This document shows, piece by piece, positions 48,881 to 51,688 of a DNA stretch of 64,000 bases. The notes under the pieces were generated by a model. That model saw nothing but the letters and a program-made list of their open reading frames with translations, was not told the DNA's origin and ran no database searches. This stretch comes from Sphingobacteriaceae bacterium (lineage in GTDB: Bacteria > Bacteroidota > Bacteroidia > B-17B0 > Aurantibacillaceae): contig CANKBS010000001.1 in assembly GCA_947480015.1 (NCBI GenBank), forward strand, positions 1 to 64,000, given 5' to 3'. The position numbers were made by a program, and so were the translations under genes. Every line of letters starts with the position of its first letter. The stretch's first letter is position 1.

Positions 48881-49930
48881 ATGAAGTTATCGATGTTTAA
48901 ATTTAATCTGCCTAAAGAACTCCTGGCAGAGCATCCTGCAAAAAACCGTGAAGACTCCCGCATGATGGTAGTTGACCGTGCAACAGGAAAAATTACACAT
49001 AAAAAATTCAAGGATATCATTAACTATTTTGATGATGGTGATGTGCTGATTCTGAATGACACCAAGGTTTTTCCTGCACGCATGTACGGCAACAAAGAAA
49101 AAACCGGCGCCAAAATAGAAGTGTTCTTATTACGCGAACTAAACGCCGAAAGCCGTTTATGGGATGTGTTGGTTGATCCGGCCCGTAAAATCCGTATTGG
49201 TAACAAATTGTATTTTGGTGAAGATGATAGTTTAGTGGCTGAGGTAATTGATAATACCACTTCACGCGGACGTACCTTGCGTTTTTTATACGACGGTTCT
49301 TACGAAGAATTCAGAAAGATTCTTTACGACCTGGGTGAAACCCCATTGCCTAAATACATTAAACGTGCTGCCGAACCGGAAGATACTGAACGTTACCAAA
49401 CCGTGTTTGCGAAAAACGAAGGTGCGGTTGCTGCACCTACTGCAGGTTTACACTTTAGCCGCGAATTATTAAAACGTCTGGAAATTAAAGGTGTGCAATT
49501 TGCACCCTTAACTTTACACATTGGTTTGGGTACTTTTAGAACGGTTGAAGTTGAAGACTTAACCAAACATAAAACCGAAAGTGAAGAAGTTTTAATTTCG
49601 AGCGACACCTGTAAAATTGTGAACGCCGCGAAAGATAAAAAGAAACGCGTGTGTGCTGTTGGAACTACTGCCATGCGTGCTATCGAGACTTCAGTTTCTA
49701 CTACCGGCCACTTAAATCCATATGTGGGCTGGACCAATAAATTTATTTTCCCTCCCTACGATTTTAGTATTGCCAATTGTATGATTACCAATTTCCATAT
49801 GCCTGAGAGTACCCTCTTAATGATGGTAAGCGCTTTTGGTGGCTATGATTTGGTTACTAAAGCATACAAAGAGGCAATCAAAGAAAAATACCGTTTCTAT
49901 TCTTATGGCGACGTGATGTTGATCATCTAA
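48881..49930 (+). CDS. queA: S-adenosylmethionine:tRNA ribosyltransferase-isomerase QueA
   Basis: A 349-residue enzyme that adds the epoxycyclopentanediol part to preQ1 in the anticodon wobble position of tRNA, the penultimate step of queuosine synthesis. Diagnostic segments are [13 protein letters not shown] (about 8), [14 protein letters not shown] (about 55), [10 protein letters not shown] (about 185), [16 protein letters not shown] (about 210) and [18 protein letters not shown] near the C terminus. Length is normal. It stands alone, with a promoter and a long leader upstream and a strong terminator after. Other queuosine genes are absent from the window. Confidence 0.97.
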
Positions 49931-49948
49931 TTATTAAATCATTCTAAA

Positions 49949-49980
49949 AATCCTCTCCCGAAACGGAGGGGATTTTTTTT
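49949..49980 (+). terminator. Rho-independent terminator of queA
   Basis: AATCCTCTCC (49949-49958) pairs with GGAGGGGATT (49965-49974) with one G-T wobble around loop CGAAAC, followed by a T-run to 49980. It lies 19 nt after the queA stop. Confidence 0.9.
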
Positions 49981-50140
49981 GTCTACATTTCTGTAAACAA
50001 AGGCATCAAGTAATTTTCAGAACAAATGACTAGCGGTTTTTCGAATATTTTGTTTTAATTATTTTCCTGAAGGACTCATACAAGGCAGGCTATGCTTTGA
50101 TCTAAGTCCTAACTGGAGCAGTAAATTTGGAATGCTTGTT

Positions 50141-51139
50141 CGGCCCCTCTGGGGCCGTTTTAATTTTAAGACGTGTTTTTAAAAATGTTTTGCTCCTCCG
50201 GAGCAAGCTTGTTTTTAGAAGAGTTAAAAAAGCTCCGTAGGAGCTTACTGTTTGTAACAAGTAGTGTGGATGGTCTAGAAAGCTCCTTAGGAGCGACCTG
50301 AATATTGTAAGCTAAATGAACTCAGTTCTATGTAAAATCAAAAAAATGAGTCATGCAATAACAAAGGTCTCGGAGAGTGCAAACATCTCGTGTAAATAAA
50401 AGCTCCGATGGAGCAAACTGTTTGTAATAACACATAACTAAGTATTAGAGCGCCATAGGAGCGACTTTTTTGTATTCTACCTTCGCTATTTTTTAAAGCC
50501 TTCTTTGACGATATGATTTCATATAATCAAACATTAAATGCTCTTTAGGAGCAAACTGTTTGTAATAACAAGTTAAACTAAGCCATAAAGATCCTTCGGA
50601 GCGACCTTTTTGTATTCTACCTTCGTCTTTTTTTTAAAGCCTTCTTTGACGATATGATTTCATATAATTAAAAATAAAATGCTCCGTAGGAGCATACTGT
50701 TTGTAATAACATATCTTCCAAAGTTGTTATAAGCTCCTTAGGAGCGACCTGATAGTTGTATACTAAGCGACTTCAGATGTCTGGAAAATTAAAAAATTGA
50801 ACCATGAGGCAACCACGGTCCTTGAGAGCGCAAACACATCGTCAAAATAAATTATTCCATAGGAGAAAACACTACTTAATTTAATAAATGACTTAATAAA
50901 AAACCTCCGCAGGAGCAATCTGTTTGTAATAACATATCTTTCAAAGTTGTTATAAGCTCCGTAGGAGCGACCTCTTTATGATATGCCAGACAACTAACCT
51001 AGTTGGAAAATTAATCTCGACATATTATAATGACTATGTTCTGCAATTCCCATAAAGCCCTTGCAGATTCATCGGTCCCGGAGGGACCAAACATATTTAG
51101 AAAAACAAAACCCAAATTTCTATTGCCCCGGAGGGGCAA
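50141..51139. repeat. Array of about 15 short palindromes (BIME-like)
   Basis: There is no gene from 49931 to 51178. The stretch carries about fifteen palindromes of form 6-7 bp / 3-nt loop / 6-7 bp, mainly AGCTCC-nnn-GGAGCT. Two types alternate. Type A is followed by an ACTGTTTGTAATAACA-like tail (starts at 50231, 50401, 50539, 50680, 50904). Type B is followed by GACCT (50281, 50449, 50590, 50732, 50955). The A-to-B distance is 48-52 bp in all five pairs. GC-rich variants stand at both ends (50141, 51074, 51123). Such units resemble REP/BIME elements in bacteria; no transposase is present. Confidence 0.85.
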
Positions 51140-51178
51140 AACAAGGTTGAAGGCTTGTGCGGTTTTGATAAAACAATG

Positions 51179-51688
51179 CTAACCTTCTGTAAACAAAAGC
51201 AATTCGTTATTTTCATTGCTAATGCGGACAGGCTTTTCGAAATGTAAACCCAGCTTATTAAGCAAACGAATGGAACGCACATTATGAGGTTCGGTAATGG
51301 CTACGATCTTATTGAGTTTTAAAACAGCATAACCATGATCCATCATGGCCTTAGCGGCTTCAAAGGCATAGGATTGGCCGCTGTGTTCCGGCAAAAAAGC
51401 AAATCCAATATCAGGATCAGTTAAAAAATCGCGTTTTAATAAACCGCAGATGCCAAGGGCAACTTTGCCTGCTTTTAATTCAACCAGGTAGAGTCCATAG
51501 CCATGTTGGGCATAACTTTTTAAGGGACCTTGCAGCAAATAATTTTCGGCGTCTTTGATCGTTTTGATCTTGCGGTCGCCAATAAATTCGAGCCAACCCG
51601 GACTGTTCAACAATTCAATAATAAAAGCAGCATCGCCCAAATTAAACTCGCGTAAGATCAGTCTTTCGGATTCAAGGATGCTTTTCAT
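51179..51688 (-). CDS. GNAT family N-acetyltransferase
   Basis: A 169-residue acetyltransferase of the RimJ/RimL-like GNAT group, transferring acetyl from acetyl-CoA to an amine or protein N terminus. It shows ESERLILREFNLGDAAFI at the start, IGFAFLPEHSGQSYAFEAAKAMMDHGY (motif A, CoA-binding loop, about 93-118) and NVRSIRLLNKLGLHFEKPV (motif B, about 135-153). Length is typical. It is divergent from the SWIM gene and ends at the right border of the palindrome array, which may supply its transcription stop. Substrate is unknown. Confidence 0.9.
   Translation of the reverse strand: MKSILESERLILREFNLGDAAFIIELLNSPGWLEFIGDRKIKTIKDAENYLLQGPLKSYAQHGYGLYLVELKAGKVALGICGLLKRDFLTDPDIGFAFLPEHSGQSYAFEAAKAMMDHGYAVLKLNKIVAITEPHNVRSIRLLNKLGLHFEKPVRISNENNELLLFTEG

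Follow-up and report, generated by a model that had tools for sequence, protein, structure and literature searches.

The window analysed here is a 64,000-nucleotide stretch from the genome of a Sphingobacteriaceae bacterium, and its segment 50141–51139 carries five palindrome pairs, each made of a palindrome A and a palindrome B and all in the same orientation. A pair forms a module of two short hairpins on the same strand (5-bp stem, 3-nt loop) that lie about 50 nt apart and each have a conserved tail. Sequence comparison suggests that such an A-B pair is probably a single bipartite element, non-autonomous and similar to repetitive extragenic palindromes (REPs), which an IS200-like Y1 single-strand DNA transposase would recognise as its cognate unit. 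Modules bracket the genes of this transposase lineage in a fixed geometry, and their dispersed copies are found mostly in genomes that encode the lineage. What is new is a widely distributed REP-like element beside a Y1 lineage that a published survey lists without one (Quentin et al., 2018; PMC6006769). None of the titles and abstract openings listed in searches of open-licence PMC papers describes these modules.

The palindromes of the window have stems of 5–7 bp and loops of 3 nt. The five pairs start (A/B) at 50232/50282, 50402/50450, 50540/50590, 50681/50733 and 50904/50956, which gives A-to-B distances of 50, 48, 50, 52 and 52 bp and pair-to-pair distances of 170, 138, 141 and 223 bp. 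With up to one mismatch allowed, the pattern GCTCCNNNGGAGC matched the window 11 times, every time inside 50192–50968, against a shuffled expectation of 0.40 (maximum 3; 11 was reached in none of 100 shuffles). The array of palindrome pairs described in a first-pass annotation of this DNA is therefore real. The annotation also gave A and B different tails. Their tails are indeed distinct, but they are related to each other, and A and B have the same orientation. Three pairs have the A tail ACTGTTTGTAATAACA without mismatch, another has it with one mismatch and the first pair with three; the B tail was said to be GACCT, which holds for four of the five pairs, the remaining one having GACTT. Palindromes do occupy the whole of 50141–51139, the extent first proposed, but the outer ones that set these limits are members of a second family, C-D, with different tails: 50143/50192 lies on the minus strand, 51075/51125 on the plus strand. 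This family has the loop RGA and tails that resemble AAAACA, and its modules flank the A-B array on both sides, inverted to each other. The features of the array are listed below with their scores from a covariance model, R1, that was built from 70 modules flanking transposase genes, 68 of these from other genomes.

50231..50301, plus strand: A-B module 1 (A 50232–50244, B 50282–50294; R1 58.7 bits)
50401..50469, plus strand: A-B module 2 (A 50402, B 50450; R1 47.5 bits)
50539..50609, plus strand: A-B module 3, with imperfect stems (A 50540, B 50590; R1 37.9 bits)
50680..50752, plus strand: A-B module 4 (A 50681, B 50733; R1 61.3 bits)
50903..50975, plus strand: A-B module 5 (A 50904, B 50956; R1 55.1 bits)
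50136..50205, minus strand: C-D module, left bracket (R1 43.3 bits; pattern GYYCCRGAGGRRC)
51074..51144, plus strand: C-D module, right bracket, inverted relative to the left one (R1 40.9 bits)
50486..50711, plus strand: tandem duplication (85-nt unit 50486–50570, again at 50627–50711; 92% identity, spacing 141 bp)

Besides the 85-nt unit, stretches of 75 nt (spacing 223 bp, 91% identity) and 121 nt (spacing 451 bp, 74% identity) are duplicated. The window array grew in part as units of about 141 and 223 bp were duplicated in tandem. An Rfam scan of 49900–51300 (E up to 1) returned three chance-level matches only, far under the gathering scores.

Modules are not confined to the window. At a cut-off of E ≤ 0.1, R1 found 32 places in this genome, 24 A-B and 8 C-D modules; the window holds 5 and 2 of these, and 19 A-B and 6 C-D modules lie outside it. 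They occupy ten contigs besides the window's (C2, C6, C8, C11, C14, C16, C23, C28, C29 and C37), which rules out a purely local tandem repeat. Five of the A-B matches, all in C14, overlap or adjoin each other. The exact pattern GCTCCNNNGGAGC occurs at 33 sites in the genome and its reversed control at none. All 33 sites, compared by hand, fall within two-hairpin R1 matches, so that A and B are paired genome-wide and their independent scatter is ruled out. The C-D pattern behaved similarly: 14 of its 15 places (control 0) form seven pairs at 47–52 bp, and the partner of the fifteenth is one base off the stem of the pattern. At ten module loci fetched from this genome, no open reading frame (ORF) spans the modules; five of the ten lie between convergent ORFs, like the window array, and three have no ORF on one side.

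Two other arrangements were observed in this genome. At C14:88828–89143 (L020:1029–1344), seven successive palindromes follow each other at 47–50 bp, a regular array with a period of about 50 bp instead of separate pairs, and most or all of them have TGTAG-like tails. C-D modules stand inverted, with A innermost, around 0.2–0.9 kb of DNA at C11:26351–26708, at C28:11827–12619 and in the window (50136–51144). A-B modules lie inside this bracket in the window and in C28, and none were found inside the C11 bracket.

The first-pass annotation had supposed that the array may depend on a distant gene. The genome contains one match to Y1_Tnp, at C37:539–883 on the minus strand, on a contig other than the window's. 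The corresponding gene, P0001 (C37:437–895, minus strand), encodes 153 amino acids with no internal stop, is the single intact copy, and is flanked by two inward-pointing, hence inverted, A-B pairs with B closest to the gene. Contig C28 also carries modules, and the last 130 bases at its right end are the first 130 of C37, so that the two contigs probably join.

P0001 scored 73 bits with the NCBIfam IS200/IS605 transposase model (cut-off 55) and 41.1 bits, under the cut-off of 80, with the NCBIfam model for the REP transposase RAYT. It carries YIQNQEEHH and lacks the Y---NP motif of canonical class 2 TnpA_REP. Within the Y---Q--HH signature, Y115, Q119, H122 and H123 are invariant in 27 sequences. 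P0001 also has a WQ motif and DHTH, in which T replaces the I or V of DH[IV]H; most relatives have DHIH or DHVH. The closest solved structures by sequence are the TnpA proteins of ISDra2 (E 3.4e-14) and IS608 (E 3e-9). An AlphaFold model (mean pLDDT 90.5) matched both in Foldseek and also matched the E. coli RAYT structure 4er8. Among the first 30 matches listed, the root-mean-square deviation (rmsd) was 3.4 to 4er8 versus 4.9–15.9 for IS200-type structures, values that come from a model of the monomer only; for this reason we rejected the lower rmsd to 4er8 as evidence for a monomeric P0001. The survey describes TnpA_Y1 subclass 1.2 as having Y---Q--HH, DH[IV]H and WQ, a length of about 148 amino acids and low copy number, as occurring mostly in Bacteroidetes and Cyanobacteria, and as close to IS200 transposases without having the properties of an insertion sequence (IS) (PMC6006769). 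Its table gives no REP for this subclass, and its section on the search for REPs around genes makes no mention of it. In motifs, length, low copy number and Bacteroidetes host, P0001 agrees with subclass 1.2. A Y1 enzyme thus exists, as the first-pass annotation expected, but it has the motifs of this subclass and is not a canonical class 2 RAYT.

The flanks of related transposase genes were then compared. The collection comprised 110 loci, among them 80 named loci that are the best 80 of 568 relatives. Removal of four duplicates and three broken or partial genes left 103, of which 101 had a long enough flank on a given side and 99 had both flanks usable; a module was counted only with two exact stems. 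Such a module was present upstream of 58 of 101 genes and downstream of 50 of 101, on at least one side of 78 of the 99 genes and on both sides of 29. Dinucleotide-shuffled flanks contained a module in 1 of 4040 cases, and the ends of other ORFs in the 80 named loci in 4 of 705. Three of these four control matches come from one locus (L121:1931–3388), where modules stand next to other ORFs near the transposase gene. The 80 named loci are labelled mostly as Bacteroidota, many of them metagenome bins; the other labels are Ignavibacteria, Verrucomicrobia, Planctomycetota, Neomarinimicrobiota, Candidatus Jettenia, an Acidobacterium and an Anaerolineales bacterium. Modules adjoin genes from the Verrucomicrobia, Planctomycetota, Neomarinimicrobiota and Jettenia bins, and the module next to the Anaerolineales gene is atypical in its tails.

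The geometry of the 108 gene-flank modules is constant, with an A-to-B spacing of 48–53 in 95 of them. Stem sequences vary widely between genomes: there are 18 different B arms. These show diversity but, with only exact stems counted, do not test the pairing independently. Of the 108, 76 passed a filter on loop and spacing and 70 were aligned; since these were picked for exact stems, their 100% pairing and covariation arise partly by construction. The A tail approximates GAC[AC]TNTTT[AG]TAGAAA and the B tail G[AG]C[AC]T[GA]. TAG occupies tail positions 11–13 in 75 of 108 A tails versus 1 of 71 B tails of sufficient length. The REP-tetranucleotide-like [AG]TAG is common in these A tails, 9 nt 3' of the hairpin and not at its 5' foot. 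At tail positions 3–6, A and B of the same module agree at 2.83 of 4 positions versus 1.85 after permutation (maximum 2.13 in 2000 permutations), an agreement that is partly due to relatedness. Where a full module lies upstream, the centre of its B hairpin is 13.5–57.5 bp from the start codon, in half of the cases within about 21 bp (search range 10–60).

Across genomes, the presence of modules follows P0001. Multi-genome searches with R1 used E ≤ 0.01 for the family and E ≤ 0.001 for a phylum sample of 118 genomes; they were run with strict filters, so that module counts are lower bounds. P0001 homologues were present in 44 of 87 family genomes. Modules were found in all 38 genomes with a homologue at E ≤ 1e-35 versus 8 of the 49 others (529 versus 50 modules), and, counting any homologue (E ≤ 1e-3), in 41 of 44 versus 5 of 43; the three module-less genomes with a homologue all have weak ones. 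Copy number varies widely, up to 54 modules per genome, and in 28 of the 38 close-homologue genomes the modules outnumber the gene matches by more than two to one. Y1 genes of other kinds are no predictor of modules: among family genomes with another Y1_Tnp and no P0001 match, 1 of 13 has modules (G015, one module). Among those with no Y1_Tnp, 4 of 30 do (G016, G043 and G074 with 2 each, G049 with 14). In the phylum sample, where the lists were cross-read by hand, the homologue was strong (E ≤ 1e-40) in 32 genomes, weaker (to 1e-20) in 17 and absent from 69; modules occurred in 25, 5 and 4 of these, respectively. A single-stem pattern was also tried as a genome-wide counter and was weaker than R1 (31 of 38 versus 12 of 49).

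In other genomes, modules also combine into composites. The 150 best matches listed for the phylum sample include 132 from outside this genome; where neighbours among these are at most 60 bp apart, their order is +- in 24 of 26 cases. This layout, A-B, 6–21 bp, B'-A', is the gene-flank arrangement minus the gene. Sixteen such composites from five genomes were compared, and their flanks are largely unrelated. Among same-genome pairs of ends, at least 70% agreement beyond the outer A hairpin was seen in 8 of 72 pairs over the first 15 nt, in 2 over the next 15 and in none farther out, which places the end of the repeated unit no more than about 30 nt from the outer A hairpin. Composites ending exactly at that hairpin were not fully borne out by this comparison. 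One copy, in G097 and G102, has flanks that the two genomes share as far as the comparison reached, as expected of an orthologous site. The only composite that was folded is far more stable as a single strand than its shuffles (z −9.9). Among 150 matches listed in the family search, neighbours within 300 bp outside this genome were 17 -+, 7 +-, 6 ++ and 3 --. Because +- prevails in the phylum list and -+ in the family list, modules combine in more than one way. The BIME-like (bacterial interspersed mosaic element) composite of the first-pass annotation holds as a paired unit, but the pair is direct, and inverted A-B composites were found only in other genomes.

These observations fit a mechanism in which the transposase would bind the module hairpins while the DNA is single-stranded. 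The tail, which on the opposite strand lies just 5' of the hairpin, would take the place of a guide sequence and position the cut; in IS608 and in REPs the guide sequence lies 5' of the hairpin (PMC6006769, PMC8266576). One dimer could hold A and B together, and CTAY, 9–13 nt ahead of hairpin A on the tail-first strand, is our guess at a candidate cut site. The transposase would thereby spread modules as non-autonomous elements, inverted module pairs would form a larger unit, and the window copies would afterwards have multiplied partly via tandem duplication. The C-D family may have been left behind by a related transposase that has since disappeared; compared by eye, the TnpA genes of the relatives L054 and L051 have C-D-similar tails. 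A wider proposal, to which we give slightly less than an even chance, is that the whole IS200-like lineage filed as partnerless has a REP-like system across Bacteroidota and several other phyla, in which the substrate is the bipartite module of two same-strand hairpins at a fixed 50-nt spacing and the tail bases shared by A and B act as a changeable guide code that co-evolves with the enzyme.

Several observations weigh against the proposal that the modules are recognition units of this transposase. We infer transposition, cleavage and binding from association, geometry and tails. Of the 103 genes, 24 have no exact-stem module on either side, including that of the Acidobacterium (L135), and 7 of the 32 strong-homologue genomes of the phylum sample have no module at E ≤ 0.001. 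Conversely, G049 has its 14 modules and 25 sites of GCTCCNNNGGAGC with no Y1_Tnp match, and here the gene has either been lost or is absent from the assembly. The cuts at 1e-35 and 1e-40 were set after the lists had been seen, and because the genomes are related, independence is overstated and P values are only indicative. The A-B copies of this genome are in direct orientation and partly of duplication origin. TTGTA is present in four of the five window B tails, and together with the TGTAG-like tails in C14 this indicates that the difference between A and B tails is looser in dispersed copies than in gene-flank ones. The modules are inverted around the gene, so that the arrangement is not that of an IS608-like element. 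Composite ends are not always sharp, since in G198 and G109 the repeat runs on past one end.

One genome, G050, contributes six of the 17 -+ neighbours of the family list, with different-looking ends and flanking repeats, and these also count against the proposal. Its composites of two inverted modules measure about 208 bp between the ends of an inverted repeat, ACTGTTCGAAAC. Direct flanking repeats of 11 bp accompany four of the eight composites: exact in L145, 10 of 11 in L142 and L151, and doubtful in L147, where the repeat is palindromic; L137, L139, L140 and L144 have none. The two flanks of one copy resemble each other more closely (mean 7.9) than do flanks taken from different copies (mean 5.3, maximum 9). 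Flanking direct repeats are not expected from IS200-type transposition, and those of G050 fit a different type of transposase. The modules could accordingly be passengers of miniature inverted-repeat transposable elements moved by another, target-duplicating transposase. We consider this improbable, as the repeats were seen in one genome only, the only one in which they were looked for, and such passengers would leave the tie to one Y1 lineage unexplained.

The surroundings of the array bear on the remaining alternatives. The array is placed between two convergent genes, after a terminator-like hairpin of the upstream one:

48881..49930, plus strand: upstream gene, labelled queA in the first-pass annotation (ORF; 39 of the 40 genus genomes, counting this one, have a homologue)
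49946..49977, plus strand: terminator-like hairpin of the upstream gene, ahead of the array (13 pairs and a T run)
49989..50045, minus strand: degenerate 57-nt copy of the downstream gene's 3' end (original 51185–51241; 41 of 57 identical, in frame)
51179..51688, minus strand: downstream gene, labelled GNAT in the first-pass annotation, convergent (ORF; at 5 of 29 other loci a homologue, partial or full, lies near the queA orthologue)

The best of 300 mononucleotide shuffles reached 33 identities with the 57-nt copy, versus the 41 found. The copy sits across the array from its gene, as if the array had split or duplicated the gene end. A queA homologue was present in 38 other genus genomes, 29 of which gave a locus that could be searched, and in none of these 29 was a module found beside the queA orthologue (fetched flank up to 1.5 kb). 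One of the genus genomes, G032, has the same convergent gene pair about 85 bp apart with no module; it has no P0001 homologue, though it does have another Y1_Tnp. Its intergenic DNA is too diverged from that of the window for an insertion junction to be placed.

A location between convergent genes would suit RNA hairpins kept because they end or protect the transcripts of these genes, as had also been suggested for the array. The absence of ORFs across the ten own-genome loci, half of them between convergent ORFs, is in line with this, as are the 13 terminator-like sites in the region versus 1.3 in shuffles, a count in which two sites are the upstream gene's own and some hairpins are counted on both strands. 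However, the upstream gene has its own terminator-like site ahead of the array, modules lie on both sides of the transposase gene and even ahead of its start codon, they track the presence of that gene, and a terminator needs no fixed 50-nt pairing with a tail motif. We regard this explanation as very improbable. A better case can be made for a domesticated transposase that binds the modules in the service of its host (in replication, repair, chromosome order or regulation of the transposase itself), the modules having spread by duplication or recombination and not by transposition. The one intact gene copy in this genome, the low copy number given for subclass 1.2 (PMC6006769), the closeness of the upstream B hairpin to the start codon and the tandem duplications of the window array all favour domestication. 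It is nevertheless unlikely in our judgement, because module numbers that vary widely and reach 54 per genome, composites at largely unrelated flanks and a queA site without modules in 29 relatives resemble mobile DNA.

If the modules are indeed recognition units of the transposase, they would give subclass 1.2 a testable substrate of clear geometry, would represent a second, GTAG-free route to REP-like repeats and would account for palindrome pairs met in many Bacteroidota genomes. Because A and B change their tail type together, the guide hypothesis can be put to a direct test.

Several known systems resemble the modules in part. CGTC REPs, which are non-GTAG repeats reported from Bacteroidetes among other phyla and described without a dedicated transposase, have stems of 8–9 bp, loops of 4–5 nt and a CGTC, TGTC or CCTC foot, and occur mostly as head-to-head dimers (Di Nocera et al., 2013; PMC3733652). 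The modules are likewise non-GTAG palindromes, and a TGTC foot is present in 14 of the 108 B hairpins and 11 of the 108 A hairpins. However, their stems have 5 bp, their loops 3 nt and their pairs are direct, and they are not CGTC REPs as these are defined. REP counts have also been tabulated for Bacteroidota genomes including Flavobacterium, in a paper whose main text mentions neither TnpA nor RAYT (PMC12306157), and those repeats may overlap with the modules.

The REPs and REPtrons of class 2 TnpA_REP (RAYT) are also short extragenic palindromes by a single Y1 gene with scattered copies. The module tail is in guide position on one strand, and the fold of P0001 matches 4er8. In contrast to REPs, the GT[AG]G 5' foot is present in none of 108 B and 1 of 108 A hairpins (the commonest B feet are GGTC, 24; TGTC, 14; TGCC, 13; TATC, 11; and TTTC, 11), a module is two same-strand hairpins 50 nt apart, and P0001 has Y---Q--HH and not Y---NP. 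REPINs (REP doublets forming hairpins) and BIMEs recall the tail-to-tail module pairs 6–21 bp apart in several genomes, one of which folds strongly, and REPIN clusters of near-identical tandem copies are known (PMC3116915); yet a module composite has four hairpins instead of two, and the A-B modules of the window are direct and form no inverted doublets. The IS200/IS605 elements IS608 and ISDra2 (subclass 1.1) are closest to P0001 by sequence and Foldseek E-value, P0001 passes the NCBIfam IS200 model, and the two same-strand hairpins of a module recall the left and right ends (LE and RE) of these elements. In such elements, however, LE and RE lie on one strand around tnpA and the whole is excised as a circle, whereas the P0001 gene stands between inverted modules and has one copy in this genome. 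With subclass 1.2 itself P0001 shares Y---Q--HH, WQ, a length of about 150 amino acids, low copy number and occurrence in Bacteroidetes. The survey's table lists no REP for it (PMC6006769), yet modules lie by 78 of 99 P0001 relatives, and they may be the missing partner of this type of transposase.
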